Position numbers and translations under genes: made by a program
Assembly (NCBI GenBank): GCA_040388375.1
Contig: JAZKBU010000006.1
Span: forward strand, 1 to 64,000
Origin: Bacteroidota bacterium
GTDB taxonomy: Bacteria; Bacteroidota; Bacteroidia; UKL13-3
Length of the DNA stretch: 64,000 bases
Direction: 5' to 3'
Part shown: positions 18,201-37,841 of the stretch, piece after piece
Layout of the letters: every line of letters begins with the position of its first letter
Numbering within the stretch: position 1 is the first letter of the stretch
The notes under the pieces: model-generated
What the model was told of the DNA's origin: nothing
Seen by the model: only the letters and a program-made list of their open reading frames with translations
The model's database searches: none

Positions 18201-19073
18201 TTAATGTACAATCTGAATTTTCTGTTTGTGTAATATTGTTCCTTCCTGGTTTTTAAATGATACAATGTATAAACCTTCTTTCCATTCTGCTGTACTGATG
18301 GTATTGTTAGCTATGACTTGTATAGCTACTTCTTTCCCTGTCATATCAGTTACAGTTACTTGTTTTATTGCTGTGTTGCCTGTAACTACTATACTATTAT
18401 TGGCAGGATTTGGATATACGGTGTATGTTTCTTCTTTTACTTCGGGTACCGCATTGGCATTAGCGGTGTATTTGTAATCAAACTCAAAATATACATTATC
18501 ATTACCTCCGCTTGGCGGACCTGCAGGTATTTGTACTTTGGTACACTTTAACATAACGTATAGATTGCTTTGTCTTATTCTGCCAATATATACTTCGTCT
18601 GTTTTCACCTCGGCAATGGCTAAGGTAGCTCTAGTTGAATTATATTTACTGCTTATATCGGTATTGGCAGTGGCTGCATTGTATATGGTTAATCCATTAT
18701 CTAGTTTATGCCATTTTGTAGTGCTATTGCCTTTAATGGAACCGCCCCATATGGTACTTATACCTGAAGTAAAACCTAAATAAAAAGAAGCACCACTGGT
18801 TCCAAATGGGCCATTGTGTTCTACCATGTCTATATTATTTTCTTCAGCATTGGCATAAGCGCCAAATGTATTTTGATCGAAGCTCCAATAGTATTGGTTA
18901 CTTACAAAATTGTATCCTGATTTTGAACCATTGGCACCATTTCCAAAGGGTGTACCTGTCATGTCTGAACTATGGTGTTCGTAAAAACGTAATCCTTTTA
19001 CTTCTTTAACGGTTTGTGATTGAATACTGGTAGTGTAAATAAGGCAAGCTAATACTGTAATTTTTTTTATCAT
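18201..19073 (-). CDS. Secreted protein with type IX C-terminal sorting domain
   Basis: This 290-residue protein has a signal peptide (MIKKITVLACLIYTTSIQSQ). A central domain of about 180 residues is rich in Asn, Thr and aromatic residues (YEHHSSDMTGTPFGNGANGS, YYWSFDQNTFGAYANAEENN) with no motif I recognise. The tail is a type A sorting domain: YTVYPNPANNSIVVTGN, VTVTDMTGKEV, WKEGLYIVSF and final HKQKIQIVH. It is expected at the cell surface or in the medium. It is monocistronic between two terminators. The YPNP-x-GLYIV pattern makes the sorting call firm; the rest is unknown. Confidence 0.82.
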   Translation of the reverse strand: MIKKITVLACLIYTTSIQSQTVKEVKGLRFYEHHSSDMTGTPFGNGANGSKSGYNFVSNQYYWSFDQNTFGAYANAEENNIDMVEHNGPFGTSGASFYLGFTSGISTIWGGSIKGNSTTKWHKLDNGLTIYNAATANTDISSKYNSTRATLAIAEVKTDEVYIGRIRQSNLYVMLKCTKVQIPAGPPSGGNDNVYFEFDYKYTANANAVPEVKEETYTVYPNPANNSIVVTGNTAIKQVTVTDMTGKEVAIQVIANNTISTAEWKEGLYIVSFKNQEGTILHKQKIQIVH

Positions 19074-19175: not shown

Positions 19176-19210
19176 AAAAGCCCGCTTTCATTCATTGAAA
19201 GCGGGCTTTT
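19176..19210. terminator. Intrinsic terminator after the giant gene
   Basis: AAAAGCCCGCTTTCA pairs with TGAAAGCGGGCTTTT around a short loop. It lies 23 nt past the stop of the giant minus-strand gene and upstream of the type IX cargo gene, and closes the 18.6-kb transcript. Confidence 0.92.
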
Positions 19211-19232: not shown

Positions 19233-22200
19233 TTATTCTGCTTTTACTACTTTTCTAGCGGTTAGTTTATTACCATGTAATACATGTATTAAATAAACGC
19301 CTGATTTCATATCGCTTAAATCAATTACCTGACCATCTATTCTATCGGCTTTGCCTAGAACTATTTGTGTTATTTGTTTACCTGACATATCGTAAACTGA
19401 AACAACTGTTTCATCGCTATTGGTAAACTTCGCTGTTAATTGTACTGAACTTGAAGTTGGATTTGGAGCCAACTGAACGAAGTCATTAGCAACAACATCT
19501 TTGATACCTAAACTTGTTACAGCAAACACATCGGATGTATTTTGACAACCGAGGCTATCAACTGTTACTATATAGTTTCCTGTTTGTTTTGCTTTGTGCT
19601 TGTTATTGGTAGCACCAGGAATTTCTATATTGTTTACATACCATTGGAATGTGCTTGTTGTAGCAGCAGTCATTAAGCTATCGCCTACTCTGGTAATTAT
19701 TGGTTTAGCCGGAAGGCGTTTAATCAATAATGCTGCAGTGGCGGTATCTTTTGGTTTGGTTGTACAATTAGCGGTGCTGGTCAATATACATTTAATTTCA
19801 TCACCGTAATTTACCGGTGTGGTATATTTAATGCTATCTGACCCAACTACTGTTCCATTTTTCAACCAAATGTGAGATGGTGTTGTTCCTCCATTGGCAT
19901 CGGTTGCTGTAAATACAATTGTTGTACCACTACAAACGTTATTAGCTGATTGTGTTACTGTAACTGCCGGTGTTACTGTTGGCAAAATAAATACTCTGAT
20001 TTTATTTGAAGTAACAACAGTTGGTGCAGCACAAGCTGCTGATGATGTCATTTGAACGCTTATTGAATCGTTATCGGTTAATGATGTTGAAGTGAATACT
20101 CCATTATTGGTACCTATATCTAATCCATTGCGTTTCCATTGGTATTGAGGAGTTGTTCCACCATTAACAGGAGTTGCTGTAAACTCCATTAACGCACCAA
20201 CACAAGCAGTATTAACACTTACTGTAATGTTTACTGTTGGTATTACGTTTGGCGATACAGTCATAACCACTTTATTTGATACTACTGTAGCCGGTGAAGC
20301 ACAAGCTGCTGACGAAATCATTTGTACACTAATTGAATCGTTATTGGCAATTAATGATGTAGTAAGTACTGCATTATTGGTACCTACATTCAATCCATTA
20401 CGTTTCCATTGGTATTGTACGCCTGTTCCTCCGTTGGTAGGAGTTGCTGTAAATGTAACTGGCGAGTTAACACAAACTGAAGTAGCGCTTGCAGTAATAC
20501 TTACTGTTGGTGTTACTGTTGGTGTTACTGTCATACGTATTTTGTTTGATACTACTACTGCAGGTGAAGCACAAGCTGCTGACGAAGTCATTTGTACACT
20601 GATTGAATCGTTATCAGTAAGTGATGATGTAACAAATGAAGCATTGTCAGTACCCACATCTACTCCATTACGTTTCCATTGGTACTGTACACCTGTTCCA
20701 CCATTTAATGAACTGGCAGTAAATGTAACTGACGCACCTGAACAAATTGAACTATTGCTTGCTGCAATACTTACAACCGGAACAACGGTAGTTGTTACAT
20801 TCATAACTGTTTTATTTGATACTATGTTGTTAGCACTTAAACAACCTGCGTTGCTTGTAAGTACTACATAAATGGTATCGTTATTAGCCAATGTAGTGCT
20901 TGCAAATGCTACTGAATCTGTACCAACGGTCACGCCATTTTTCTTCCATACATAATGTGGTGTGGTACCTCCATTGGTTATACTTGTATTAAACACAACG
21001 TTGGTTCCACTACAAATAGTGGTTTGGCTGGCAGTAACTGCTACTGTAGCAGTAAGAATCGGATTGATAATTAGCTTAACGCTTGCTGATGTATCTAACT
21101 GTCTGCTGATACATGTTGCATTTGAAGTTAATATAACTGTTATGCTGTCACCATCTGCAAAGGTACTTGATGTGTACTTAGCACTATCTGTACCGGCAGC
21201 TACTCCATTTTTATACCATTGGTAATGTGGTGTAGCTCCTCCGTTTACAGGAGTTGCAGTAAATTGTATTGAGGTACCTGCACAAACATTGTTTACACTA
21301 GCCGCTATAGTTACATCTGGTGCTACTATAGGGTTTACTGTAATTACTTTTTTGTTTGATACGATTGATGTTGGTACTGCACATGTTGCATTTGAAGTGT
21401 ACTCTACATAAACGGTATCGTTGTTTGTAAGTGCTGATGTAATAACGCTATCTACATTGGTAGCTATTGTTACTCCATTTTTCTTCCACAACAAGTTTGG
21501 CGTTGTTCCTCCGTTGGTAGTAGCTACGTTAAACTGAATAGCATCGCCTGCACAGATGGTTGTAGTTGCTGAAGTAACTACTGCTGTTGGCACTACTGAT
21601 GGTATAACGGTAACTCCTATTTTGTTAGAGGTAGCTGTAGTTGGTGATGGACAAACTGCGTTACTTGTAATTACTACATAAACTGAATCGTTATCTGACA
21701 AATTAGAAACAATTAATTTATCGCTATTGGTACCAATGTTTATACCTGCATTTTTCTTCCATTGGAAACTTGGTGCGGTACCTGCATTCACCGGAATTGC
21801 TGTAAAGGTATCAACTGTGCTTGCACAGAATGTTGTAGCAAAAGCGGTGATGCTTACTGATGGTGTAATAAGCGGATTAACTGTCATCTTAATTGAGTTT
21901 GATGTATCCTTACTAGGAATAGCACAACCTAAACTTGATGTTAACACTACTGTGAATGAATCGTTATGGCTGATAGTTGCAGGTGTAAATACATTGGTAT
22001 CGGTACCTACATTTACGCCATTTTGTTTCCACTGATAGCTTGGTGTTAATCCACCATTTACCGGTGTAGCTGTGAATGAAACTAAGTTACCTGCGCATAT
22101 TGTTGTAGCAGTTGTAGCAATGTTTACATCCGGTACTATTGATATACCAACATTCATTTTAACATGGTTTGAAACCACGTTGACTACTGTTGCACACAAT

Positions 22201-25200
22201 GCAGATGAACTTAAAATACAAATAACTGAATCGCCATGTGCCAGTGTAGTGCTGGTAAATGTATTGCTATTGCTTCCTACGGTAAGTCCATTGATACGCC
22301 ATTGGTATGTTGGTGTTAAACCTCCGTTGGTAGCAGTTGCAGTGAAGGTAACTGACATGCCTGAACAAATACTCGAATTGGTAGCAACCATACTTATTGT
22401 TGGTGTTACCGAACCTGTTACATTGATAGTTGAATTGGCAGTATCGTTGTTGGCATTGATATCGGTAGTTGAATTTGGCGATGCTGAGAATGCACTAATA
22501 GCAAATGTACCACCAGTAGTAAAGTTATAATTACCCAATACTATCTGTGCACTGGTATTACCTGATGTTAATGTGCCTGTCCAAGAATATGTTGGTTGAC
22601 TAACACCATTAATGGTCCAATAAATAACAGCATTGTTTACGGTTTGATTACCATAGTTTTTCAATTTTACCACTATGTTTTTAGTTGTACCACAGAAATT
22701 GGTTGTTGGTGAATCAACACTTAACACACCAATATCCATAGATGAGAAGTATTCATCAGCTCCAATATCTGGAGGTGAAAGACGTGTTTCTCCATCTATA
22801 TCTGTAGTAACTGCTGGTATAGCTATTCCTTTACTTGTGCTGTTAGTTAAATGTAAATCTTTTGTAGACGTAAACGGAATGCTTACGTTGTATGAGTTAG
22901 CATTGTAACCTCCTCCTCCTACATAGGTACCAGTAGTGTAAGTTGTTCCATTCAGGTTAATTAAGTTAGCAGCAGCTCCGTTATAGAAGTTATTGTAATT
23001 AAATGTTGCAATGGTTGCTGTTCCTCCTAAATAGAATGGAATACCTGTTCCTGTTGTAGCGGTGTAGTTAAAGATATTATTTCTGATATCTAAAGTCAAG
23101 TTAGTGTAATAGTACAAACTAGCTGCAGCGTATTGTGCATTGTTAGTTGCAAAATCTAAGTTCACTGTGTTATTGAAGATATTCCAGAAATCGCTGTACT
23201 GCCAGTATAAACCTGATGCAGCTGTGCTTCTGAATCCGCCTCCGATCATATTGTTTACAAAACGGCTACGATTAGCTGATGATGTGCCACTGGCAAAATA
23301 TAAATATGCTCCATACTGACCAGCTCCTGATATTCTGTTGTTACTAATATCGTGGAAGTTGATGCCTGTATTGTAGCAATTGTTCAAACTTAAACCTGAT
23401 GAACCAGTTGTTCCGTTTATTCTTACATTAACTGTATTATTCAAAAATTTAAATCCTTCTGCATAGTAAGCATATACGGCTGTGTAATATGAACTGTCTA
23501 TGCTATTCAGTCTGAATTTATTATTTTGTGAATAAGGAGTTGAAGTACGACCGTAATAGTAAACTGAATAGTAACCTGAATAAATTCTGTTACTGTCAAT
23601 TTCTATATTACTAATACTAGTTCCATTTTGTGTTAAGTTGGTTAAATCACTGCTACCATTAATCAATAACGGAATAAAGTATTGCGAAGTTCCATTGGCT
23701 CCTGTTCCGTTTATTCTGATATTACAGTTTTTAATTTTAACAACATTACTTGCTCCTAATAAATGAACAGCTACACCATAAGTTGTACCTGCAGTTTGGA
23801 TGGTCATATTGTAGAAGTTAATGTATGGAGAAGAGTTTAATCTAAGTGTATGTGCATTGGTAGTTGTAGTTGCGTTATAGGTTAATACAACTCCAGTTCT
23901 AGATTGTCCTATAAAGGTTACGGTAGTACTATCGTTTACACCATTGATAGCGTTGATATTTACCTGCTCATTATAGGTACCATCAGCAACTGTAAATGTA
24001 ACCGGTGCAACTATTCCTCCACACTGTAATGCACTTGCAGCTGCAGTAAATGAAGTAAAGTTACTTGCACCACTACCAGCAGCATCAATAGTATAGCTAC
24101 CTGCCATAGCCGGACAAAGCGGTCCTACTGTTAATGTATCGTCTAAGTTGTTTCCATCGGTTGTTCCATTTGGCAACGAAGTGTACGCTTTAACTGTATA
24201 AGCTGTTCCTATTGCAATGTTAAAGGTTGTAGTAAATGTTACCAATGTAGTATCGCAAGGGTTTAACGTACCTGACCAACTTTGTGTTACCGGTATATCA
24301 CCGTTTACGCTGTAGTTAATATCGGCACTTGTTACAATGGTATTTCCTAAATTAGAAATAATAACTGAAACGGTTTGTGCTCCTGCTGTAATTGGAGATA
24401 ATGGTGATAACATAGCGGCAACACCAATATTGTTGTTAACACCTCCTGTTACTTCATCGGCTCCCATATCTGGCGGATTGTTTCTTACGTTACCGTCTAT
24501 ATCTGTCGTAACGGTAGCTATTGCAATACCATTGTTACAACCATTGCCTACATGTAAATCTCTTTTCGAGGTAAACAATGGATCTCTGTTAATAGAGTTG
24601 GCATTATAACCACCACCACCTACAAATGTTGCAGGGCTGTAATTTGAACCAATAGTAATTAGGGTTGAAGGACTACCTGCTTTGTAGTAATTATTATAGT
24701 TTACTGTTGCTACGTTTGTTGCAGTAGGCACATTTAAAGCAATGGCTTGCGAAGCAGCGTCAGTAATGCTAAATATATTATTACGAACATTGATAGCTGA
24801 TGAATTGGTTATGTTTAACAATCCGGTAGCTGCTGATATGGCTGTATCTGAATTTATTGAGTTATGATCAATATTCAAATAATTACCATAGTCTAAATAA
24901 ATACCATTGTGTGAAGATGTATTTCTAAATCCACCACCTATCATATTATTGTTTATACGTGAAGGATTACTAAACGAACCGTATACAAAGTAGTTATAAA
25001 TTCCATACTGGCCCATATCATATATTTTATTGCCGGTAACTTCATGTAACATACTACCTGAAGTAAGACAGAAATACAAGTAGATACCAGTAGATGTATT
25101 TGGACCTAATGGCCACATGTTAATGATATTGTTTTGTACTTTAACTTCTGTATTGTTATAAATATAGATACCATAATTGGTCGGATTGTTTAAAGTATTA

Positions 25201-28200
25201 CCTCTAAATCTATTAGCGGTACCATTGTTATTATAATCCCAGATTGAAGCATAACTTCCATTGATTACGCTACTGTCTATTTCAATACTATCAACCAAGG
25301 TGTTTGATGTAGATGAATTTAATGCACCTGAAACAACCACATTGATATAATTAGCTGAATTTGATGTAGCACCCACTCCAGTAACTTCTATAATAGAATT
25401 TTTAATTTTTATATTGTTACTGTTTCCATAAATATGGACTGGCCAAGCATATGTTGCATTTGTATTGCGAACGGTCAAGTTTCTAAACTGTATAAATGAA
25501 GTATTATCAAATCTTACAGTATGACGTGAGTTGGCAGTAGTAGTACCGTTTACTAATATCCTGGTTGCAGCATTTCCTATACCACCATCAAATACAACGG
25601 TGTTGGTAACAGAAGCTCCCGGAATGGTTGGTATAACTATTTGCTCGTTATAAGTAGCTGCAGCCACATCAAATGTAACCGGACCGCTTATTCCACCACA
25701 TAATAAAGCTGTTATAGCATTACCAAATGAAGTATAGTTAGTTGCACCACTTCCTGTAGGATTAATAGTATAAGCACCAGCCATTCCCACACAAATTGGA
25801 GGTATTACTAAAGTGTCGTTTACGTTATATACATCAGGATTACCATTTGGTGTTTCTGTGTATACTTTAATACCGTATGTGCTTCCGCCAACAAAATTAA
25901 ATTGGTTTGCGCCTGTAAATGTAACGGTATCAAAACCACAAGGTAAAATAGTATCTGGGAAAGTTACACTAACTGGAGCACCATTATTAATTGAATATTT
26001 AACGGTTCCACCTATTACGGTATTTGAGCCATAATTTTTAACTATTACTATAATGTCTGATAAACCTGAAACAATAGGTATACTAGGTTGTAACATAGCT
26101 TTTACACCTATATCATCAACACCTGAAGGTAATTCATCAGCTCCTATATCGGCAAAACTAGCACGTACGTGACCGTCAATATCCATTGTTACACCAAGAC
26201 TATCTCCGTTGTAGCAACCATCTACTATATGTAAGTTTCTGGCTCCTAAAAATAACGGATTTCTAGAAATAGAGCTGTTATTATAAGATCCGCTTGTAAA
26301 GTTGGTTAAGTTGTAGTTACCTGCTAAATACAATAATGTATTGGTACCTGTTAAACCTGCTTTATAGTAGTTGTTGTAGTTAATTGAACCTGCTCCTGCA
26401 ACGTAAGTGGTACTTGGTATATACATTGGTAAACCTGTTCCGCTTGTTGCAGTGTATGCTAATACATTATTCTTAATAGCATTGTTACTACCTGAATTTA
26501 TGAATAAGGCTGCATACTGTGCATTGTTAGTTGAAGCATCTAAGCTTACTGAGTTTTGGAAAATATCCCAAGTATTTCCTGATAAGAATATACCGTAACT
26601 GTTAGATGAAGTAAAGCCTCCGCCTACCATGTTGTTCCAAATACGTGAACGGCTGCTTGATGAGCTTGAGTTATTAATATAAATACCAGACTGTGTAGCA
26701 TCGGTAATTTTGTTACCATTAATTTCATGGAAATTAGTAGTGGTGGCAATACAGTTATTAATGTATAAACCGTTACCGTTTTGCGAAGCATTTACACCAG
26801 TTCTGTTAACTACAGTATTATTGTTTAAAACAAATCCATCCTGGCTATATAAATACACGCCATAGTAGTATGCTCCGTTAACGTTGTTACCTCTTACCAA
26901 TGTTCCAGTGCTTTGTGTAGTACTGTTACCATATAACATAATACCGTAATATCCATTGTTAATGGTATTAGAATCTATTACGACATTCTGCAATAATAAT
27001 TGTGTTGTTTCGTTTGTTGCAGAACCGCTTCCAACTATACCAATAAATGTGTTATTAGTACTACTTGCAGCATTAACGCCTGCAATATCAACAATACAAT
27101 TTTTAACGCTATTGTTATGTGCTGCACCGAAGTAATGAACACCCCAACCGTATGATGCACCTGTTGTTTGAATAGTTAAGTTTCTGAAGTTAACATACTG
27201 ACAAGCGTTGAATCTTACTGTGTGACGCAAGTTGTTAATAGATGCGCCATAAGTTAAAATACGTGTTGCAGCATTGTTTGTTCCTCCATCAAACGTAATG
27301 GTATTAATAGCGCTTGTACCTGTTATATTGGTAATATCCAATTGCTCGGTATAAGTACCTGCTGCTACGTTAAAGGTAACAGGGCCCGTAATACCTGCAC
27401 AAACCATACTGCTTAATGCTGCACCAAATGATGTAAAGTTACTAGCACCACTTCCTGTTGCATTAATAGTATACACACCATTTAAAGGACCACATAAGCT
27501 TGGGTTAATGGTATCGTTTCCTTTAAAGTTATCGCTTACTCCGTTTGGTAACGATGTATAAACAATAGCATTGGTAACTCCACCAAAATTAAATTGTTGT
27601 GCTCCTGTAAACGTAACTGTTTGTGTGCTACAAGGCAACAATGTTATACCTGTTAAGGCTTGTGTTACCGGACCTAAGCCGTTAATATTATAAGTTACAT
27701 TTAACGAAGTAATAGTATTTGTACCAAAGTTTTTAACCACTACTGTTATGTTTTGTAAACCTGGAGTAATTGGTTGTGTTGGTGCCGTTAAAGCTACTAC
27801 ACCTGCATCGTTAGTTAATGCTTCGTCCGCTCCAATATCTGGTGGTGTATTTCTTGTATCACCATCAATATCAGTAGGAACACCAGCTATAGCAACACCT
27901 TTCATACAACCACCAGTTCTTAAGTTAAATTTACTTGCAAACTGTGGATTTACATTTAATGAATTGGCATTCATACTACCTCCACCTACAAAGGTTGATG
28001 TAGTATAGGTTGCAGAATTATAATACAACAAATTGTTTGTTGCTGCATTGAAATAGTTATTGTAGTTTAATGCAACAGCACTGTTACTTAAATAGAAAGG
28101 TAAACCTGTTCCTGTAGCTGCACTATAAACAAAATGATTATTTCTGATATCAAGTGTTGAGTAATTGGCACTGAACGCTGACAGGGTATTAGATGTTGTT

Positions 28201-31200
28201 GCAAAATCTAAATTAACACTGTTGTTCCAAACATCCCAATAGTCGCCATAGTATAAATATAAACCGGTAGAACTTGGCGATCTGAATCCGCCACCAATCA
28301 TATTATTTACAATTTTACCTCTTGAACCTGTTACGTTATTACTAAAGTAAATATACATTCCATACTGGCCTGCATTGATTACTTTATTATTAGATATTTC
28401 ATGGAAGTTACTACCTGTACTGTTACTTACGTATAAATAAACACCTGTTGAGTTAACTGATCCGTTTACACGAATATTAATGGTGTTGTTTTTAACTTTA
28501 ACCCCATCTTGGTAGTAAGCATAGAATCCATAGTAATAAGAGCTATCTATTTTATTAAATCTATAGTTGTTATTAGATGAAAGCGGAGTATTTGAAGCAC
28601 CAAACACTAGTATTCCGTAGTAACCGTAACTAATTTTATTACTGTCTATTTCTAATCCGGTAATATAGTTTCCGTTAGTTGTAGGTGATTGTACGTTGTT
28701 AAATCCATTTACCAATATACCTATATAAGCACTTCCTGTACTTGTTTGTCCGGCACTACCAAAAGTAATAATACAATTTTTTACTTTACTTGAGTTACTT
28801 CCGCCAAACACATGAACCGGATTACCAAATGTAGCACCATTTGATATAATGGTTAAGTTTAATATGCTTACAAATGGTGAGCTGTTTAACTGAATAGTAT
28901 GAGCTGATGTATTAACAGTTGGTGTAAATGTTACTGTTCTTGTTGCTGCACTACCTCCGTCAAACACAACTGTGTTAACAGCGCTTGCTCCCGCTATGCT
29001 ATTAATAGTAACTTGTTCGTTGTAAGTACCCGGAGCAATATTAAATACTACCGGTCCTACTACGCCACCACATGAAATAGCATTGGCTGCTGCACTGATT
29101 GAAGTAAAGTTACTTGCACCACTTCCACTTGGGTTAATGGTATAAACACCACTAAATGCAGTACAGAAAGTTGATGTAGTAGTATCGTTTACTCTATTAG
29201 CATCAGTAACACTATTAGGTTGCTCTGAATATGCTTTTAAAACATATGAAGTACCAAAAGCAAAAGTAAACTGGTTGCTTCCTGTAAATACTATCGATGT
29301 AGTATCGCATGGAGCTAATGAACCTGTCCAGTTAATTGTTTTTAATGAGCCTCCGTTTACTGTATATTTTATGTTAGCTGATGTAATGGTGTTAGCACCA
29401 AAATTATTCAGTCTTACACGTACATCTTGTGTACCGGCAGTAAATGGTAATTGAGGAGCCATTATAAATGATACACCTATGTCATTGTTAATTGAACCAA
29501 TATATTCATCGGCTCCTATATCTGGAGGAGTACTTCTAAAGTGTCCGTCAATATCAGTTGTTACACTGGCTAATGCCGTTCCGTTTATACAACCTGAGCC
29601 AATATGTAAATCGGTAGTTGAGGTAAATCCAGGATTTTGATTACGTGACCCTGCATTGTATCCACCTCCGCCTATAAAGTTACTCGATGTATAAGTTGTT
29701 GTTCCAACTGTTACTAAGTTACTGCTTGCATTGTTAACGTAATTGTTAAAATCAAGTGTAGTTAATACAGAACCGGCTGAAGCATTGAAAGCCATTCCAG
29801 CTCCTGAAGCAGCCGAATATACAAGCATGTTATTTCTTATATCGTGTGTACCACCTGCTTGTACATACATAGCTGATGAAGTAGCTGTAGTAGTAGGGTA
29901 ATCAAGATTTACTGAGTTATTGAAAATATCCCAATAGTTTAAGTTACTGCAATACAAACCAACAGCAGAAGCATTTCTAAATGTACCACCAATCATATTA
30001 TTAGCACATAAAGAACGGTAAGCTGAACTTGATGAATAGGTATAATATAAATACATACCATATTGTCCTGCATTGCTAATTTTATTGTTTGTTACTGTAA
30101 ATGCATTGGTTCCTTGTCCAAAGTTAAAGTATAAATATACTCCTTGTGAATTAGCCGAACCATTGATACGCATATTTACAGTATTGTTATGGAAAGTTAA
30201 TCCGTTGTTGTAATAAGTGTAAATACCATAATAATAAGCACTATCAATAGTATTTTTTCTCATTAACGTATTGGTTAAATAAGGGCTACCTGTATTACTG
30301 CTTAATACTATACCATAGTATCCGTTTACTAAACGATTACTGTCTATTTCAAGTCCACTTGCTTGCGAACCTGAAGCTGTTATGTTATTACCATCAGCAT
30401 TGTTGTTTACAACAATTGGTGCATAAGAACCCGAAGCTGAAGTAGCAGCAGCACCTGTAATCTGAACAATACAGTTTTTAATTTTAATATTGCTGGCAGC
30501 ACCCATTATATGGACACCACTACCGTAGCTTGTACCATTATTCTGAATATTTAAATTTCTGAAAATAATGTTCGAAGCACCATTTATCCTGATAGTATGA
30601 TACTCTGTATTTACTGTAGGAGCAAAAGTAATTATCCTGTTTGCAGCACTATCACCATCAAAAGTAATGGTGTTTGTTAAGCTTGAACCGGCAATAGCAG
30701 GTAATGTTATTTGCTCAGTATAAGTACCGGCAGCTACTGTAAATTTAACAGGACCACTAATTCCACCACACGTTAAAGCATTGGCAGCAGTAGTAAACGA
30801 AGTAAAATTGTTTACACCTGATCCGGTTGCATTGATAGTATAATTTCCGTTTAAGAAAACACAACTTGGTCCTAAAATTATGGTATCGTTTGATGTTTTA
30901 GGATCTGCAGTTAAGTTTGGATTAGAAGTATAAGCTGTAATTTGATAAGCTGTACCCATAGCAAAGTTATACTGATTAGCTCCGGTAAATGAAACACTCA
31001 CAGTATCGCATGGAGCCAATGTACCGCTCCAAGCAATTGTTTTAGCTAAACTTCCATTTACACTATAACTTACGTTGGCTGATGTAATAGCATTTGAGCC
31101 AAAGTTTTTAAGCACAACGCGTATATCTTGTAAACCAACGGTAAAAGGAGCAATGCTTACTAATCCTACATCGTTATTAGCACCAGCAAACTCATCAGCA

Positions 31201-34200
31201 CCAACGTTTGGAATACCGGCACGTGTTTGTCCGTCTATATCATCAACCAAACCTAAGTTAGTACCTTTTGTACAACCTTCTAAAACGTGTAAATCAGTTG
31301 CTGAAACCCAGTTAGGATTTTTGTTAAACGAAGCAGTATTAAAACCTCCTCCATTTAAATAATTGTTGGCATTATAGTAAGTACCGGCTAAGTAAACCAG
31401 GTTATTACTAGCAGCATTAGCTCTGTAATAGTTATTATTATCTAACCTGAAAATACCACTTGGCAATGCACCAACATATACCGGCAAACCAATATTTGTT
31501 GGACCACCAGTAGTGGCAAAAATATTGTTTCTTACATCAATACTTGCACCACTGTATAAGTATAATGCTGCATATTGTTCGCTACCGGTTTGTAAAAAGT
31601 CTACATTCACCGAGTTATTAAATACATCAACATTATTACTGTATTGTAAGCTAATTCCATAGCTTCCGTTTACTTTAAAACCACCCGCAAGCATATTGTT
31701 TGCTATACTATGGCGAGCATTGCTACTTCCAAAGTAATAAGCATAAATACCATAATTACCTGCGTTTGTTATTTTATTTGCATTTACCGTATGGAAATTA
31801 GTACCTGTTGTGTAGCAGAAATATAAATACAATCCGTATGAACTAACACCAGTTACACTACGCATGTTAATGTTGTTATTGCTTATATTCATTCCATCCT
31901 GGTAATAAAAATAACCACCGGTGTTATAAGCATTCACAATATTGTTTCTTCTGAATTTATTATTGAAAGCATAAGGAGTACCGGTAACACTATAAGCATA
32001 AATACCATAGTATCCATTATTAATGGTATTACTGTCAAACTCTAAATTGTTTACCTGCGAACCGGTGGTTAACGAAGTAATTGAAGTTGAGTTATTGATA
32101 ATTACAGGAACATAATTAGCAGAAGTACTGGTAGCTCCAGTTCCTGTAATTTCCATCACACAATTTTTAAATTTACTAAAATTACTGTTACCTAATACAT
32201 GTACCGCAGCAGCATAAGTTGCACCGCCTGCACGTATAGTTAAGTTTCTGAAAATAATATTAGAAGCAACGTTTAATCTTACCGTCCAGAAATTAGTTGT
32301 TGTATTAGCAGCAGTATCTATAATTCTTGTTGCTGCATTTCCTGCACCACCATCAAACGTAATAGTATTGATATTGCTATTACCTGTAACATTGGTAATA
32401 TTAACCTGCTCGTTATAAGTAGCAGCAGATACTACAAAAGTAACTGCGCCAGATACACCGGCTGTGTTTAATGCATTAACTGCAGCTCTGAAACTGGTAA
32501 AGTTAGTTCCACCGCTACCACCACTTGGGTTAATAGTATAAATTCCTTTTAACGAAGTAATTTTAGGCCCAACATTAACAGTATCGTTTATTAAATTGTC
32601 ATCGTTACTGCTATTTGGTTGGTGTATATATACTTTAAATGTAGTTAATACGGCAGGTAATATATTAGCTCTTTTCGATCCGTCCAATACAATTTGCATC
32701 ACATCATTAGTAGCTAAACTTAATCCGCTAAATAATGAATCTTGCATATTTGCACCGTTCACGGTGTGGCGAAGGTTAAAGCTGTTAATAGTAGTAGCTC
32801 CAAAGTTTTTAACCGTTAATACCACATTTTGTAAACCGGCTGACAAGAAAGTATCAGGTGACATTACAGAAACAATTCCTAAGTCGGTAGTAGCACTTGA
32901 AGCTTTTTCATAAGCACCGATAGTAGGTGGGTTATTACGTTGTACGTTTAAAATATCAGTAGGCACTGCTGCCAGTAAAATACCATTAAGAGCAACTGTT
33001 GGTAATAGGTCTCTGGTAGCTGTATAAAGAGGATTGATACGAGAAGAATTTAATCCTCCAGAAGTAGCTGTGTTATAGGCTAAAGTATCATAGTTAGTTC
33101 CATTTACCTGAATATGTTGTAAACCCAATACTGTTTTATGATAGTTGTTGTAATTAAGTGCACTAAATGTTACACCAGAAACAGCACGGAAAGGATACAT
33201 GTTAATACTAGCCGATGGATGCGTAATAGCAAAATTGTTATTTCTACAATCGTTAACAGTACTACCTGTAAAATAAATAGCCGATGCGGTACCTGTAGCA
33301 GCATTGTCAATATTTACAGAGTTATTCCAAATATTCCAGTAATTTGATGAAGTAAAATACATACCGTAAGGAGTTGCATTTCTGAATCCTCCACCAAAAC
33401 TATTGTTAATCATTTGCGAACGCGAAGCTGCAATACCCGAGCTACCTGTAACATAAATACCATACAAAGCAGCATCGGTAATTTTGTTTCTGTTTATTTC
33501 AGCCGTTGAAGTTGCATTACTGCTAATAGTAGCCAAATAAATACCTTGACTGGTTGTAGAAGCCGCAACTGTACGCATCTCAACCAAGTTGTTGTTAATT
33601 TTAGGAGCTATAATATTGCTCACATAAATACCATTTAAGTTAGCACTATCAGCAATATTGTATCTATAAGCAATACCTGTATTGGTTCCATTACCCATTA
33701 AATAAGTAGAAGTATGTCCACCTACAATACGGTTACTGTCTATTTCAATATTGCTTGATGCACTTGTTCCACTCGTAGCATTAGGAGCAGAAGCAAAATT
33801 GTTCAATACAATACCTACATAATTATCACTTGTTCCAGTTAAACCATTTCCACCCACAAAATCAATTACACAATTTTTAACTTTAATAGTATTACATGTT
33901 CCAAAAATATGTAATGGCCAGGCAGTTGTTGTTCCACTTCCTCTTATGGTTAAGTTATTTAAAGTAACAAACTGCGTGTTGTTTAAACGTAAAGTATAAG
34001 GTAAAGCAGTTGTTGTTGCTGCAAAGTTAACAATACATGTTGGAGCATTACCCGCACCACCATCAAAAGTAATAGTATTAACCGCACTTGCACCATTTAC
34101 AGTCGTTAAATCTAACTGTCCTGTATAAGTTCCCGGCATTACATTAAACACTACTGGCCCGCTTATTCCACCACAAGTTAATGCAGTAACAGCCGATGTA

Positions 34201-37200
34201 AATGAAGTAAATGTAGTAGCACTTGGAGTACCTGCAGCATCAATTGTAAAATTACCTGATAAGCCTGTACATACATTGCTTATTCTCGCAGTATCGTTTA
34301 TTGGCACTAAATCAGTAGAGCTATTAGGTAAAGAAGTATATGCAGTAATAGTATATACTATGCCTGGTAAAAAAGTTACCCTTTGGTCGCTTGAACTAGC
34401 TCCACTGGTAGCATTAAATTCTACCGTTTGTGTATCGCAGGCATTCAATGATCCCGTCCAATAAATAGTTTGTACAGCACCACCATTAACCTGGTAATTT
34501 ACCTCTGCCGAAGTAATGGTTGAAGTTCCATTATTTCTAAGCACTACACGTACATTTTGTGTACCAATAGCTATAGGCAATGTTGGACCAGTAATAGCCG
34601 ACACTGATAAATCAAGTGGAGAAGCTGTTATGTTTTCATCACATCCAATATCAGGAGGATTGTTTCTTATGTCTCCTTCAAAATCAGTAGTAACTCCGCT
34701 TATAGCCACACCATTGTTACAAATCAATGACGTTCTTAAATTTTTATTGGTAGTATAAGTAGGATCAATACTAACCGAATTAACATTATATCCTAAAGCA
34801 CCTTTGTAGTTAGCCAATGAATAATTGATACCATTTAAAAACACAAAACGTGAAGTAGGGTTACCTACTTTGTAATAGTTATTGTAATTTAAACTGGTAA
34901 AACCACTACTTGTTGCATCAGCATATAAAATATATGTATTGGCACTGGCATTGTTCGATACAAAATTGTTGTTACGTACATCAAAATTGCTGCAACTATT
35001 CATGAATTTAACAACCGAGCTTTGCGCTCCGCTGGTTGCATTATCCACTACTAAGCTATTAAACCATAAGTTTACATATTGGCAATTTTGATTAAAATAC
35101 ATAGCAGCAGGGTCAGTACTTCTAAAAGTTCCACCAATCATGTTATTGATAATACGGGCAGGATTTGTTGAACCTCCCTGCATATAATAAAACTGTACCC
35201 CATATTGACCTGCATCAGTAATAACATTGTTCATTAACTCATACTGGTAACTGTTGTTCAACGTAAAATTAGAGTAAATTCCGTTTGAAGCAGCATTACC
35301 TGTAACACGCATGTTAATGGTATTATTATTACATTTATAACCATACAAATAATACATATATATACCATAGTAATTGGCATTGGTAATCGTATTATAACGC
35401 ATGTTTAAATTATATGAACCTTGGCTATAAACATAAATACCATTGTTACCACCGGTTATCTGGTTACTATCCAAGTCAATATTATTAGGTGTTGAATTGG
35501 TACTTATACTGGCCGAACCTCCGTTTACTACTATACCTGTAAAAGCATCAGTAGTTGCGTTCACACCACCACCCGTTGCAAAATCAATAATACAATTACG
35601 CACTTGCGTATTAGATGCATTACCTAATAGATGAACAGGCCATGCAAAACTTGCACCTGAACCACGGATGGTTAAATTTTTTATTCTTACCCATTGTGTA
35701 TTATCAACACGAATGGTATAACTGGCTGCTTGTGTAGCAGCAGCAAAATTTATTATCCTAGTGGCCGCATTACCCACACCACCATCAAACGTAATGGTAT
35801 TGGTTGCCGAAACACCTTGCACATTTGATAAAGCCATTTGCTCCACATAAGGAGTTGAACCCAATACTGTAAATACTACAGGGCCATTAATACCTCCATT
35901 ATTTAAAGCTAAAGCGGCTGCACTAAATGATACAAAATTGGTAGTACTTGCCGGGCTTGATTGATCAATAGTGTAGTTACCAGACAAAGCAGGAAACACA
36001 ACCGGTATAATTGTAGTATCATTTACATTATTAGCATCGGTGGTGCTGTTAGGATAATCACTATATGCTTTTATGCTATACTGTGTATTTGGCATAAAGT
36101 TATATTGATTAGCTCCTGAAAAAGTAACCGTAGTAGTTGCACATGAAGCTAAACTACCTGACCATGTAGTAAAAATAGGGCCGGCACTATTAACATCATA
36201 ATAAGCATTAGCTGATGTAACCACATTGCTACCATAGTTACGTAACAATAACGATACATTTTGTGTACCAGCAGTAAAAGGTAAAACAGGTGCTGTTATT
36301 CTTTCAATACCAATATCATCAGTTAGCGGGGTTACTTCGTAAGCTCCAATATCAGGTGGATTGGTACGTGGTATACCATTAATAGATGTAGTAACCGCTG
36401 TAATTTGTACACCATTATTACAAGGTGTAATAGGTTTCAAATTTTTAGCGCTCGTAAACATTGGATTGGCAGCAAACGAATTAGCATTATAAGAGCTATT
36501 GTTTACAAAATTGGCCATTGTTAAAATAGTACCTCCACTGTAAAGGAAAGGATCATTATTACTTGCACCCTGTTTAAAATATATATTATTATTTAATGAA
36601 GCAGTATTTGCTACCGCATAATTATATCCATTAGGCATGTACATAACGTAAGCAGAACTGCCTGCTGCAGTTATGGCAAAAATATTATTTCTAATATCCA
36701 ATAAAGTAGCTCCTGTTGTACAGCAGCTACCCAAATAAATAGGTGTTGCCGATGTTCCGGTTGCAACCACATCTATATTCACACTATTGTGAAACACATC
36801 CCATGAGTAGGTTGAATTAAAATAAATACCTACTGGATTAGTCAATGTTCTGAAACCTCCGCCAATAGCATTATTAAATAATTGACTGCGAAGAGCAGCT
36901 TGTCCGTTAGAAGAATTTATATAAATGCCGGTTAAACCACAGTTAATAATTTTATTATTGCTTATTTCATGAAAATTTCCGCTTGAAGCATTGCTGGTAG
37001 TAAAGTATATTCCATAAGAAGATACATTACCTGTTGTTTTCATATTAAAGTTATTATTTACAACTTTAGCCTGAACAGATCCATAAAGATATAATCCATA
37101 ATAATCAGTACTATCAAAACTGTTTCCTCTAAAATAAATACCCGTGTTAGAAGAAGCACCATAAAAATAATTAGCATAACCACCAATAAAGCGATTACTG

Positions 37201-37841
37201 TCAACTTCTAAATTAACCAATGAGGTAGTACCAGTTGTAGGACTGGTTGTACTATTATTAACAACCAATGCACAAAAATTATTGTTGGTATGAAGTGTAA
37301 GCGATGATGTAAATTCAATAATACAGTTTTTAACTTTTACGTTACTTGAAACATTAAATATATGTAAAGGCCAACCAACAGTAGTTCCTGCCGCCCTAAT
37401 AGTTATGTTTCGTAAATTAATGTACTGTGCATTGTTAATTTTAATTGTAAATGCAGTAGCTAAAGCAGTTGGTGCTGCTTGTACAACACAGTTGGCAGCG
37501 TTTCCAACTCCACCATCAAAAGTAATAGTGTTGGTTGCACTTGCACCTGTTATGGCCGTAATGTCTAATTGGCCAACAAAAGTTCCGGCAGCTACGTTAA
37601 AAAGTACTGCGCCTGTTACCCCCGCTCCGTTTGGAGTCCCCCCGTCACTTCTTGTTCCTAACTTTAAATCACTTACAGCCGAAACAAAGTCCCGGTAATT
37701 GGTTGGACTTGCGGCCAACGAAGAGTCAATAGTGTACGTGCCATTTAAGGCCGCCATTGCTTTTGACGAACTGAGCATTAAGAATAATGCGGTAATAAAT
37801 AGAAAGAGAAAATTTTTTGATTGTAGAAGTGTTTTGACCAT
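19233..37841 (-). CDS. Giant surface protein: nine beta-helix/CARDB-like modules, ten Ig-like repeats, type IX sorting domain
   Basis: This is one open frame of 6202 residues without interruption. A signal peptide spans residues 1-30 (hydrophobic core FLFLFITALFLMLSSS, cleavage after AMA). Nine modules of about 560-590 residues follow. Each opens with a G-x-YTI...NFTSF signature, goes through parallel-beta-helix sequence full of Asn/Ser/Gly ladders (NLTIRxxGxxxxWPVHI, KVKNCII, YGIYxYY, NNSVNxD), reaches a block like DIDGDTRNTPPDIGADE, and ends in an about 110-residue domain resembling CARDB (AGTQNVRVVLxNFGTNTITS). After them come ten Ig-like repeats of about 90 residues (ICSGxxVxFTA...YQWKRNG...DNDSISVQM), a partial eleventh, and a sorting tail (QLAPNPTSSSVQ, SVYDMSGKQI, SGVYLIHVL, KVVKAE). 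Likely a fibrous adhesin or surface filament secreted by the type IX system; binding target unknown. No protease or hydrolase motif is seen. It is transcribed alone. Confidence 0.88.
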   Translation of the reverse strand: MVKTLLQSKNFLFLFITALFLMLSSSKAMAALNGTYTIDSSLAASPTNYRDFVSAVSDLKLGTRSDGGTPNGAGVTGAVLFNVAAGTFVGQLDITAITGASATNTITFDGGVGNAANCVVQAAPTALATAFTIKINNAQYINLRNITIRAAGTTVGWPLHIFNVSSNVKVKNCIIEFTSSLTLHTNNNFCALVVNNSTTSPTTGTTSLVNLEVDSNRFIGGYANYFYGASSNTGIYFRGNSFDSTDYYGLYLYGSVQAKVVNNNFNMKTTGNVSSYGIYFTTSNASSGNFHEISNNKIINCGLTGIYINSSNGQAALRSQLFNNAIGGGFRTLTNPVGIYFNSTYSWDVFHNSVNIDVVATGTSATPIYLGSCCTTGATLLDIRNNIFAITAAGSSAYVMYMPNGYNYAVANTASLNNNIYFKQGASNNDPFLYSGGTILTMANFVNNSSYNANSFAANPMFTSAKNLKPITPCNNGVQITAVTTSINGIPRTNPPDIGAYEVTPLTDDIGIERITAPVLPFTAGTQNVSLLLRNYGSNVVTSANAYYDVNSAGPIFTTWSGSLASCATTTVTFSGANQYNFMPNTQYSIKAYSDYPNSTTDANNVNDTTIIPVVFPALSGNYTIDQSSPASTTNFVSFSAAALALNNGGINGPVVFTVLGSTPYVEQMALSNVQGVSATNTITFDGGVGNAATRIINFAAATQAASYTIRVDNTQWVRIKNLTIRGSGASFAWPVHLLGNASNTQVRNCIIDFATGGGVNATTDAFTGIVVNGGSASISTNSTPNNIDLDSNQITGGNNGIYVYSQGSYNLNMRYNTITNANYYGIYMYYLYGYKCNNNTINMRVTGNAASNGIYSNFTLNNSYQYELMNNVITDAGQYGVQFYYMQGGSTNPARIINNMIGGTFRSTDPAAMYFNQNCQYVNLWFNSLVVDNATSGAQSSVVKFMNSCSNFDVRNNNFVSNNASANTYILYADATSSGFTSLNYNNYYKVGNPTSRFVFLNGINYSLANYKGALGYNVNSVSIDPTYTTNKNLRTSLICNNGVAISGVTTDFEGDIRNNPPDIGCDENITASPLDLSVSAITGPTLPIAIGTQNVRVVLRNNGTSTITSAEVNYQVNGGAVQTIYWTGSLNACDTQTVEFNATSGASSSDQRVTFLPGIVYTITAYTSLPNSSTDLVPINDTARISNVCTGLSGNFTIDAAGTPSATTFTSFTSAVTALTCGGISGPVVFNVMPGTYTGQLDLTTVNGASAVNTITFDGGAGNAPTCIVNFAATTTALPYTLRLNNTQFVTLNNLTIRGSGTTTAWPLHIFGTCNTIKVKNCVIDFVGGNGLTGTSDNYVGIVLNNFASAPNATSGTSASSNIEIDSNRIVGGHTSTYLMGNGTNTGIAYRYNIADSANLNGIYVSNIIAPKINNNLVEMRTVAASTTSQGIYLATISSNATSTAEINRNKITDAALYGIYVTGSSGIAASRSQMINNSFGGGFRNATPYGMYFTSSNYWNIWNNSVNIDNAATGTASAIYFTGSTVNDCRNNNFAITHPSASINMYPFRAVSGVTFSALNYNNYHKTVLGLQHIQVNGTNYDTLAYNTATSGGLNSSRINPLYTATRDLLPTVALNGILLAAVPTDILNVQRNNPPTIGAYEKASSATTDLGIVSVMSPDTFLSAGLQNVVLTVKNFGATTINSFNLRHTVNGANMQDSLFSGLSLATNDVMQIVLDGSKRANILPAVLTTFKVYIHQPNSSNDDNLINDTVNVGPKITSLKGIYTINPSGGSGGTNFTSFRAAVNALNTAGVSGAVTFVVSAATYNEQVNITNVTGNSNINTITFDGGAGNAATRIIDTAANTTTNFWTVRLNVASNIIFRNLTIRAGGATYAAAVHVLGNSNFSKFKNCVMEITGTGATSTSANYVPVIINNSTSITSLTTGSQVNNLEFDSNTINNGYYGIYAYSVTGTPYAFNNKFRRNNIVNAYNTGGYFYYQDGMNISNNNINMRSVTGVSSYGLYLYFCYTTGTNFHTVNANKITNAGNYGIYAYYFGSSNARHSIANNMLAGGFKVNGSYGISLQYSNNVDVFNNSVNVDFLQTGSEQYAALYLYSGASIDVRNNIFATTGGPTNIGLPVYVGALPSGIFRLDNNNYYRANAASNNLVYLAGTYYNANNYLNGGGFNTASFNKNPNWVSATDLHVLEGCTKGTNLGLVDDIDGQTRAGIPNVGADEFAGANNDVGLVSIAPFTVGLQDIRVVLKNFGSNAITSANVSYSVNGSLAKTIAWSGTLAPCDTVSVSFTGANQYNFAMGTAYQITAYTSNPNLTADPKTSNDTIILGPSCVFLNGNYTINATGSGVNNFTSFTTAANALTCGGISGPVKFTVAAGTYTEQITLPAIAGSSLTNTITFDGDSAANRIITFAPTVNTEYHTIRINGASNIIFRNLNIQNNGTSYGSGVHIMGAASNIKIKNCIVQITGAAATSASGSYAPIVVNNNADGNNITASGSQASGLEIDSNRLVNGYYGIVLSSNTGSPYLTNTLMRKNTIDSAYYYGIYTYYNNGLTFHNNTVNMRINGSANSQGVYLYFNFGQGTNAFTVTNNKISNAGQYGMYLYYTYSSSSAYRSLCANNMIGGTFRNASAVGLYCSNLNYWDIFNNSVNLDYPTTTATSSAMYVQAGGTHDIRNNMLVYSAASGAGMAFNASAGSVLTTLDFNNYVNNASSNLVTVGTTTYTSSNFIGGGGYNAGSRNQNPGFTSTTDLHIGSGCINGTALASVTTDIDGHFRSTPPDIGADEYIGSINNDIGVSFIMAPQLPFTAGTQDVRVRLNNFGANTITSANIKYTVNGGSLKTINWTGSLAPCDTTSIVFTGSNQFTFAFGTSYVLKAYSEQPNSVTDANRVNDTTTSTFCTAFSGVYTINPSGSGASNFTSISAAANAISCGGVVGPVVFNIAPGTYNEQVTINSIAGASAVNTVVFDGGSAATRTVTFTPTVNTSAHTIQLNSSPFVSILNLTIISNGATFGNPVHVFGGSNSSKVKNCIITFGSAGQTSTGSAYIGILVNGFNNVQSPTTNGNYITGLEIDSNKISYGYYGILVFGASNTPLSSNNNYRFNKIDSSYYYGFYAYYQDGVKVKNNTINIRVNGSVNSTGVYLYVSNSTGSNFHEISNNKVINAGQYGMYIYFSNNVTGSRGKIVNNMIGGGFRSPSSTGLYLYYGDYWDVWNNSVNLDFATTSNTLSAFSANYSTLDIRNNHFVYSAATGTGLPFYLSNSAVALNYNNYFNAATNNLLYYNSATYTTSTFVGGGSMNANSLNVNPQFASKFNLRTGGCMKGVAIAGVPTDIDGDTRNTPPDIGADEALTNDAGVVALTAPTQPITPGLQNITVVVKNFGTNTITSLNVTYNINGLGPVTQALTGITLLPCSTQTVTFTGAQQFNFGGVTNAIVYTSLPNGVSDNFKGNDTINPSLCGPLNGVYTINATGSGASNFTSFGAALSSMVCAGITGPVTFNVAAGTYTEQLDITNITGTSAINTITFDGGTNNAATRILTYGASINNLRHTVRFNACQYVNFRNLTIQTTGASYGWGVHYFGAAHNNSVKNCIVDIAGVNAASSTNNTFIGIVGSGSATNETTQLLLQNVVIDSNTINNGYYGIMLYGNSTTQSTGTLVRGNNVNGAYYYGVYLYSQDGFVLNNNTVVNRTGVNASQNGNGLYINNCIATTTNFHEINGNKITDATQSGIYINNSSSSSSRSRIWNNMVGGGFTSSNSYGIFLSGNTWDIFQNSVSLDASTNNAQYAALFINSGSNNAIKNNVLAYTATSGTGLPMYIPSTTYVAGAGSINYNNYYKAGLTGTNTLLYLAGNYNLTNFTSGSYNNSSISRNPLFLGARNLHIVDGCYNGDSLGVTMDIDGHVRASFADIGADELPSGVDDIGVKAMLQPSIPIVSGLSDIIVIVKNYGSNTVIGGTVKYSINNGAPVSVTFPDTILPCGFDTVTFTGANQFNFVGGSTYGIKVYTETPNGNPDVYNVNDTLVIPPICVGMAGAYTINPTGSGATNYTSFGNAITALLCGGISGPVTFDVAAATYNEQIVIPTIPGASVTNTVVFDGGIGNAATRILVNGTTTANSRHTVRFDNTSFIQFRNLTVRNTNATYAWPVHIYGNSNNIKIKNSIIEVTGVGATSNSANYINVVVSGALNSSTSNTLVDSIEIDSSVINGSYASIWDYNNNGTANRFRGNTLNNPTNYGIYIYNNTEVKVQNNIINMWPLGPNTSTGIYLYFCLTSGSMLHEVTGNKIYDMGQYGIYNYFVYGSFSNPSRINNNMIGGGFRNTSSHNGIYLDYGNYLNIDHNSINSDTAISAATGLLNITNSSAINVRNNIFSITDAASQAIALNVPTATNVATVNYNNYYKAGSPSTLITIGSNYSPATFVGGGGYNANSINRDPLFTSKRDLHVGNGCNNGIAIATVTTDIDGNVRNNPPDMGADEVTGGVNNNIGVAAMLSPLSPITAGAQTVSVIISNLGNTIVTSADINYSVNGDIPVTQSWSGTLNPCDTTLVTFTTTFNIAIGTAYTVKAYTSLPNGTTDGNNLDDTLTVGPLCPAMAGSYTIDAAGSGASNFTSFTAAASALQCGGIVAPVTFTVADGTYNEQVNINAINGVNDSTTVTFIGQSRTGVVLTYNATTTTNAHTLRLNSSPYINFYNMTIQTAGTTYGVAVHLLGASNVVKIKNCNIRINGTGANGTSQYFIPLLINGSSDLTNLTQNGTSISNIEIDSNRIYSGYYSVYYYGRTSTPYSQNNKFRLNSIDSSYYTAVYAYYAEGFKFLNNTVNVRINGTTGSSGLSLNNCYNTGINFHDISNNRISGAGQYGAYLYFASGTSSANRSRFVNNMIGGGFRSTAASGLYWQYSDFWNIFNNTVNLDFATNNAQYAAASLYYYTNLTLDIRNNIFNYTATTGTGIPFYLGGTATIATFNYNNFYNGAAANLINLNGTTYTTGTYVGGGGYNANSYNVSIPFTSTKDLHLTNSTSKGIAIPAVTTDIDGETRLSPPDIGADEYFSSMDIGVLSVDSPTTNFCGTTKNIVVKLKNYGNQTVNNAVIYWTINGVSQPTYSWTGTLTSGNTSAQIVLGNYNFTTGGTFAISAFSASPNSTTDINANNDTANSTINVTGSVTPTISMVATNSSICSGMSVTFTATATNGGLTPTYQWRINGLTVGSNSNTFTSTTLAHGDSVICILSSSALCATVVNVVSNHVKMNVGISIVPDVNIATTATTICAGNLVSFTATPVNGGLTPSYQWKQNGVNVGTDTNVFTPATISHNDSFTVVLTSSLGCAIPSKDTSNSIKMTVNPLITPSVSITAFATTFCASTVDTFTAIPVNAGTAPSFQWKKNAGINIGTNSDKLIVSNLSDNDSVYVVITSNAVCPSPTTATSNKIGVTVIPSVVPTAVVTSATTTICAGDAIQFNVATTNGGTTPNLLWKKNGVTIATNVDSVITSALTNNDTVYVEYTSNATCAVPTSIVSNKKVITVNPIVAPDVTIAASVNNVCAGTSIQFTATPVNGGATPHYQWYKNGVAAGTDSAKYTSSTFADGDSITVILTSNATCISRQLDTSASVKLIINPILTATVAVTASQTTICSGTNVVFNTSITNGGTTPHYVWKKNGVTVGTDSVAFASTTLANNDTIYVVLTSNAGCLSANNIVSNKTVMNVTTTVVPVVSIAASNSSICSGASVTFTASSLNGGTGVQYQWKRNGVDVGTDNASFVTSSLTDNDSISVQMTSSAACASPAVVVSNKIRMTVTPTVTPTVSITASATSVCVNSPVTFTATPTNGGTGVQYQWKRNGLNVGTNNAVLTTSLIANNDSISVQMISSAACASPATVVSNKVVMTVSPNVIPTVNITVSVNTACVGALMEFTATPVNGGTTPQYQWKRNGLDIGTNNGVFTSTSLTDNDSISVQMTSSAACAAPTVVTSNKIRVFILPTVTPAVTVTQSANNVCSGTTIVFTATDANGGTTPSHIWLKNGTVVGSDSIKYTTPVNYGDEIKCILTSTANCTTKPKDTATAALLIKRLPAKPIITRVGDSLMTAATTSTFQWYVNNIEIPGATNNKHKAKQTGNYIVTVDSLGCQNTSDVFAVTSLGIKDVVANDFVQLAPNPTSSSVQLTAKFTNSDETVVSVYDMSGKQITQIVLGKADRIDGQVIDLSDMKSGVYLIHVLHGNKLTARKVVKAE
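19650..22420 (-). repeat. Ten tandem Ig-like repeats with about 270-nt period
   Basis: The W-K-x-N-G codons (plus strand ccat...ttccattgg) recur near 19860, 20131, 20401, 20671, 20941, 21209, 21479, 21750, 22020 and 22290, so the period is 270 nt with one unit about a codon longer. Each unit has a Cys in an ICSG/VCAG motif and another near its end. The units around 20131, 20401 and 20671 are the most alike. Confidence 0.85.
22420..37750 (-). repeat. Nine tandem beta-helix modules of about 1.7 kb
   Basis: The module starts, marked by the YTI...TNF/SNF signature, fall near 37750, 35989, 34264, 32550, 30853, 29157, 27486, 25784 and 24110, giving unit lengths of about 1.67-1.76 kb. The first three open TIDxS/TIDAA, whereas modules 4-8 open YTINPSGSG or YTINATGSG. 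The closing block changes from GIPRTNPPDIGAYE in module 1 to the uniform DIDGxxRxxPPDIGADE later on. Boundaries are read by eye and good to about 30 nt. Confidence 0.85.

Follow-up and report, generated by a model that had tools for sequence, protein, structure and literature searches.

The 64,000-nucleotide window analysed here (positions 1 to 64,000 of contig JAZKBU010000006.1, assembly GCA_040388375.1, from an uncultured member of the Bacteroidota lineage UKL13-3) contains a gene for a giant protein of 6202 amino acids (aa), in which nine beta-helix/CARDB modules differ strongly from one another and keep their positions in relatives from other genera. On the sequences compared, the nine-module array is an old and fixed design and not a stutter of copies. 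Below, the genome under study is called G000.

Architecture and module number

The gene is a single open frame on the minus strand (19233..37841), with an ATG start and zero internal stops, while the plus strand of the same interval is full of stops. A preliminary description of this DNA had reported this frame with its 6202 residues, which we confirm, and had given no strand. From the N-terminus, the protein consists of a putative signal peptide, nine modules, ten immunoglobulin (Ig)-like repeats and a type A sorting tail of the type IX secretion system (T9SS) (Table 1). Read by eye, the N-terminus (MVKTLLQSKNFLFLFITALFLMLSSSKAMA, followed by A) looks like a typical signal peptide, and the composition is rich in N (12.5%), T (12.3%), S (9.7%) and G (9.2%). 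The protein was scanned in three pieces with Pfam and NCBIfam, and in one piece or more each of the beta-helix, CARDB, Ig-like and type A tail families exceeds its curated cut-off. Beta_helix was found with 3 and 5 stretches (best E 7e-18), CARDB (PF07705) with E 4.7e-6, Ig_3 with E 7.5e-23 and Ig_7 with E 7.4e-19; weak matches to the Choice-of-anchor Q domain (NF041518; E 6e-5 and 2e-4) stay under its curated score.

The modules have 550-587 aa (about 565), and each scores 760-835 bits against a common module profile, values that carry some circularity, these modules having been used to build the profile. Pfam and the profile counts bear out the nine beta-helix/CARDB modules and ten Ig-like repeats of the preliminary description. 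Its term "near-repeated", on the other hand, does not hold: these are nine different, position-conserved modules, with pairwise identities of 35-48% in protein and 48-57% in DNA.

A repetitive gene within a 34-contig assembly could be an artefact of assembly or annotation, or a repeat expansion in decay, an explanation to which we give next to no weight. The longest exact DNA repeat within the 18.6-kb coding sequence has 24 bp, which ordinary short reads span, so that a wrong module count is very unlikely, and the frame is intact. Three other complete genes, each from its own assembly, likewise have nine modules: those of G017 (6032 aa), G028 (6032 aa) and G023 (6133 aa). Moreover, the ratio of nonsynonymous to synonymous substitution rates (dN/dS) between two relatives is 0.04-0.09, which speaks against decay. 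The possibility raised in the preliminary description, that the repeat number is an assembly error, is thus contradicted by both the short maximum repeat and the separate assemblies.

Conservation of the modules by position

In a careful IQ-TREE analysis of 59 modules (support as ultrafast bootstrap), the modules of positions 1, 2, 3, 4, 6, 7, 8 and 9 form one clade each, all with support of 100 and spanning genera. Module position requires 8 changes on this tree, the minimum for nine states, and genome identity requires 36; the minimum is reached despite the split of position 5, since its two parts are separated by unlabelled modules from outside the array. The best BLAST match is the module of the same position in 9 of 9 cases for G000-G017 and for G000-G023, in 8 of 9 for G017-G023 and in 6 of 6 for G000-G083. 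Mean identity is 51-53% for orthologous modules, against 40% for paralogous modules inside the gene. Since the order is the same across genera, the nine-module array predates either the genus split or the passage of the gene between genera. A recent repeat expansion was ruled out, given the low identity among the modules and clades that follow position, and strong recent gene conversion between modules is unsupported, the same-codon share being 0.46-0.58 against 0.47 expected.

Position 5 is the sole exchanged one, in a single lineage (G017:C1:116000-135999 and G028:C7:229000-248999). The replacement is nearest to module 2 of another giant protein, that of G027, which shows that modules can pass as whole units from one giant gene to another; the nearest relative of module 5 of G000 in the tree is module 4 of G027.

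Between G017 and G028, dN/dS values obtained by the Nei-Gojobori method (custom script) range from 0.042 to 0.077 across the nine modules and reach 0.087 in the tail. As dS exceeds 1 for several modules these values are rough, yet all are far below 1, and by this estimate strong purifying selection acts on each of the modules in this pair. Modules 2, 3 and 7 group G000 with G017/G028, and RpoB groups G017 with the clade of G023, with very weak support at the inner node. The giant gene may have been gained by transfer or lost in congeners.

The Ig-like repeats follow another pattern. Their identity is about 28-69%, with units 7-9 of G000 most alike, and only here is a tandem repeat found at the DNA level (20001-20774, period 270, 76% matches). 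Profile count and tail alignment give 10 units in G000, 8 in G017, 8 in G028 and 9 in G023; with one genome per species, this variation is between species. As the Ig number differs while the module number stays at nine, the stalk changes length and the beta-helix array keeps its count in this orthologue group.

Predicted module structure

An alignment of 86 modules was used for residue conservation and as input for an AlphaFold2 model of module 5, which has a mean predicted local distance difference test (pLDDT) of 95.8 and a predicted template modelling score (pTM) of 0.89. The model shows a helix cap and then a parallel beta-helix that ends near residue 390. A second cap, mostly coil and reaching to about residue 450, holds the conserved D432, R438 and E448; the CARDB domain, an Ig-like sandwich, spans 457-562 and includes the conserved D549 and D555. 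Along the helix runs an invariant asparagine ladder (N255, N284, N311, N340, N368; spacing of 27-29 residues), and the autocorrelation of asparagine peaks at lag 30, exceeding all 300 shuffles.

Foldseek against PDB placed lacto-N-biosidase LnbX first (E 3e-8, template modelling (TM) score of 0.46 on the query), and found also pectate lyase Pel9A (TM 0.57 on the target), RbmB, phage tailspikes, the pneumococcal adhesin PfbA, PL6 and pectin methylesterase. In a viral structure library, tailspikes and pectate-lyase-like beta-helices match the module 5 fold. The second domain matches the CARDB of PF1109 (3idu and 2kl6; TM 0.68-0.73 on the target, 23-24% identity). The predicted fold, the Foldseek matches and the asparagine ladder are those of a right-handed parallel beta-helix, and the PF07705 and fold matches those of a CARDB domain, so the folds expected in the preliminary description were obtained. 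Searching PDB with one module sequence gave no match, and a search with a profile got no further than CARDB-like domains and beta-sandwich domains that bind carbohydrate. In a joint model of modules 5 and 6 (pLDDT 91.5) each module is well folded, while their relative placing is not fixed (pTM 0.61).

Secretion, proposed function and alternatives

The sorting tail scores 41.9 bits against TIGR04183 (cut-off 23) and 39.3 bits against Por_Secre_tail (PF18962; cut-off 27), and the same genome encodes the T9SS translocon SprA (2486 bits) and the sortase PorU (1232 bits), which makes export and sortase processing of type A cargo plausible. The type IX sorting tail of the preliminary description thus stands, now as a type A domain. 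In Porphyromonas gingivalis, type A cargo is attached to anionic lipopolysaccharide (A-LPS) (PMC9143113), and by analogy the giant protein may be attached to A-LPS after tail cleavage.

We propose that the giant is a T9SS-exported, probably glycan-binding multivalent fibre, with a fixed module order on a stalk of variable length; we give this proposal an even chance of being right. The protein would be exported by Sec and moved over the outer membrane by the type IX machine via its type A tail, which a PorU-type sortase would cut, then tethering the protein to surface lipopolysaccharide or releasing it. The Ig repeats would form the stalk nearest the cell, of a length that varies between species, and the nine modules would make up the outer part. 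With roughly 6 nm of helix and 4 nm of CARDB in each module, we estimate that this part would measure no more than about 90 nm when fully extended. Binding of polysaccharide, not its cleavage, would be the most likely role of the beta-helices, with nine different sites jointly engaging a polymer, cell wall or particle. The reading frame, the domains, the predicted fold of a module, the conservation by position, the purifying selection and the T9SS genes are what the data show; anchoring, the outermost end, the extended shape, binding and carbohydrate as the ligand are what we infer. In favour of the proposal are the sorting tail together with SprA and PorU, the module fold with its asparagine ladder, the carbohydrate-acting or carbohydrate-binding beta-helices and the adhesin PfbA as top PDB matches, the lack of conserved charged columns in the helix, the position-wise orthology under purifying selection, and an Ig number that varies at a constant nine modules.

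Several points weigh against this proposal. The TM scores of the helix part are modest (at best the 0.46 of LnbX on the query), with 10-15% identity; similarity of beta-helix folds does not fix function, and most of the beta-helices matched in PDB are enzymes. With the placing in the module pair poorly determined, the array may be a rod or beads on a string. Divergent modules recombine poorly, so the fixed count may partly reflect absent recombination and not a need for nine, and a complete nine-module gene is present in three independent lineages only.

The elongated modular design, the hydrophilic N/T/S/G-rich composition, the Ig stalk and the lack of a catalytic signature would also suit a structural fibre or a matrix or coat protein, that is, a spacer or a cell-cell or biofilm scaffold whose modules bind each other or nothing and in which length alone counts. 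We consider this possible, though rather unlikely: a mere spacer should permit modules to be swapped, lost or homogenised, and here 8 of the 9 positions keep their own module across deep divergence, with strong purifying selection in each. The same position-specific conservation would suit different specificities in a multi-catalytic polysaccharide degrader, each beta-helix being a lyase or hydrolase of its own. Most of the best fold matches are indeed enzymes (LnbX of GH136, Pel9A, PL6, pectin methylesterase), and 3-7 acidic residues are invariant among the orthologues of each position within the first 395 residues. Against it, no charged column of the helix is conserved in at least 80% across the 86 modules, in agreement with the preliminary description, which saw no enzyme motif; no catalytic acids are common to the helices, and an enzyme activity of all modules is therefore unlikely, though single modules may be active. 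Neither Pfam nor NCBIfam matched an enzyme family to the modules, and no polysaccharide-use genes were recognised among the scanned neighbours of the gene. In sum, we hold the degrader to be improbable. Also unlikely is an ordered heteropolymer, in which each position would bind a different sugar or stretch of one complex polysaccharide and the array would read a defined pattern of glycans on a surface, with position 5 exchangeable and the Ig stalk setting the reach.

As a large T9SS-exported protein, the giant could also be a SprB-like gliding adhesin driven by the T9SS motor. Adhesins of the SprB type end in a type B tail and are paired with an SprF/PorP gene (PMC9143113). The tail here is type A and not type B (TIGR04131), and the giant is absent among the 15 TIGR04131 matches of the genome. 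Its three PorP/SprF-family genes lie outside the 64-kb window (C1 and C6:289 kb), and a terminator-like hairpin stands directly 3' of the giant gene. With neither a type B tail nor an adjacent partner, a gliding adhesin is unlikely, and overall we regard it as highly doubtful. Of the role in adhesion or gliding that had been put forward, gliding is thus disfavoured, and adhesion is kept as a conjecture beside the fibre proposed above.

Distribution of related arrays

The giant gene was found in none of nine congeners, of which G007 has a completeness of only 65%. RpoB was identified in eight of the nine and shares 95-96% identity with that of G000. Among the matches listed, the longest module-bearing frames of congeners have at most 2,612 aa, and two congeners gave no match to the module 1 profile. 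In one congener (G005:C191:5214-8375), a second, distant RpoB-like sequence with 37-59% identity in pieces is probably a contamination of that assembly.

A search for homologues with other module counts recovered arrays whose size, in the genes counted, ranges from 2 to 10 modules. Among the more distant arrays in the family, short proteins carry 2 or 3 modules and others 5 to 7; G030 has 9 and G022 has 10, and some proteins differ in their N-terminal region. From 159 genomes drawn from the class, 20 have a strong match (E <= 1e-40). One of these matches lies inside a 9,439-aa frame with the same module type in another family of the class, which shares its contig (G200:C76) with a second such frame of 5,487 aa. 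The design is thus not a one-off, with module-bearing frames of up to 9,439 aa in family and class. G000 itself has a paralogue of 2299 aa with three modules (C5:108757-113514), and a 3175-aa frame with weak matches to the beta-helix module (C7:386000-402000). The named relatives are uncultured Bacteroidia from metagenomes, and isolate names hint at a freshwater habitat.

Genomic context

The hairpin after the stop (Table 1) suggests, as a sequence pattern, a single-gene transcript. No conserved gene neighbourhood was found around the other giant genes compared, whose flanks share only generic T9SS tails; together with the hairpin, these unshared flanks indicate that the giant gene behaves as an accessory, single-gene unit. 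Two small secreted proteins with type A T9SS tails are encoded nearby, at 14824-15675 (plus, 283 aa) and 18201-19073 (minus, 290 aa). The latter has no full-length match in the nine congeners, where its tail alone matches, and an operon of it with the giant gene is unsupported, given the hairpin between them and these generic matches.

On the other side, the order of the enoyl-CoA hydratase, Ppx/GppA and thioesterase genes (38219-40356, minus in G000) is kept in eight congeners. The trio is followed by dnaN, directly or past one or two short genes, in G001, G003, G004, G005, G006 and G008, by a different gene in G009 and by the contig end in G002. In G000 the giant gene occupies the site beyond the trio and dnaN is about 263 kb away, so that a clean insertion between the thioesterase gene and dnaN is rejected and the site is a rearrangement point. 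Elsewhere in the window, a tyrosine-recombinase gene (phage integrase family; 10826-11785, minus) lies beside a cluster of four tRNAs (9642-10136), adjoining EF-Tu, nusG, ribosomal protein and rpoB genes.

Table 1. Features of the giant gene and its 3' flank in the window
Feature	Coordinates	Strand	Basis
Giant gene, 6202 aa, ATG start	19233..37841	-	open frame without internal stop; no exact repeat >24 bp
Putative signal peptide, residues 1-30	37752..37841	-	read by eye from sequence
Module 1 (beta-helix + CARDB), residues 34-620	35982..37742	-	profile; orthologous module 1 in G017, G028, G023, G083, G082 (tree)
Module 2, residues 621-1195	34257..35981	-	profile, tree
Module 3, residues 1196-1765	32547..34256	-	profile, tree
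Module 4, residues 1766-2331	30849..32546	-	profile, tree
Module 5, residues 2332-2897; only position exchanged in a relative (G017/G028)	29151..30848	-	tree; AlphaFold2 structure
Module 6, residues 2898-3454; modelled jointly with module 5	27480..29150	-	tree; two-module model
Module 7, residues 3455-4021	25779..27479	-	profile, tree
Module 8, residues 4022-4580	24102..25778	-	profile, tree
Module 9, residues 4581-5137	22431..24101	-	profile, tree
Ten Ig-like repeats, ~90 aa each, residues 5144-6040	19722..22412	-	Pfam Ig_7/Ig_3; profile count; tail alignment
Type A T9SS C-terminal sorting domain, residues 6126-6199	19245..19466	-	PF18962 E 8e-10; TIGR04183 E 7e-11
Terminator-like hairpin, 15-bp stem, just after giant gene stop	19176..19210		pattern scan, sequence

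Comparison with known systems

Large repeat proteins are often taken to be spacers that vary in length or are homogenised. The big modules of the giant show the reverse: nine divergent modules remain distinct, in unchanged order and number, across genera whose proteins are about 50% identical, while the Ig stalk changes in count. The question of why nine, and why these nine, thereby becomes testable module by module. It suggests that some giant surface proteins of Bacteroidota are ordered multi-site binders. In a limited literature search, without subscription papers or preprints, we found no description of a nine-fold beta-helix/CARDB array fixed by position across genera, and none combining CARDB, beta-helix and type IX secretion.

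Giant surface proteins of the T9SS, giants with a beta-solenoid (PMC12863079) and surface rods of variable length (PMC8201768) are already known kinds. SprB of Flavobacterium johnsoniae is likewise a very large, repeated surface protein exported by the T9SS, but it depends on SprF and ends in a type B tail (PMC9143113), whereas the giant ends in a type A tail, lacks a neighbouring SprF gene and is built of beta-helix/CARDB modules. With Giant1-5 of Apilactobacillus kunkeei (PMC12863079) the giant has in common the great length (3,000-8,000 aa in Giant1-5), the asparagine richness, a beta-solenoid, divergent internal repeats and Ig-like domains; Giant1-5 are from a Gram-positive, with one N-terminal beta-solenoid on a repeat stalk instead of nine beta-helices, and no T9SS tail. 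In Periscope proteins (PMC8201768) tandem folded domains project a binding part, and the Ig stalk described here also differs in number between species. Their repeats, however, are highly similar and variable in number, and no tandem domains of such similarity were found in the giant, neither among the modules (35-48%), which are divergent and constant in count within the orthologue group, nor among the Ig units (about 28-69%).

At the level of the module, the fold of the first 390 residues is that of GH136 LnbX, Pel9A, PL6, phage tailspikes and the adhesin PfbA, at low identity (10-15%) and modest TM, and here nine such helices alternate with CARDB spacers. Behind each beta-helix, the TDIDG..R..PDIGADE stretch weakly resembles Choice-of-anchor Q (NF041518), except that it is located inside each module. 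The second domain of each module resembles the CARDB of PF1109 from Pyrococcus furiosus (3idu, 2kl6), which in the giant serves as a repeated spacer between beta-helices.
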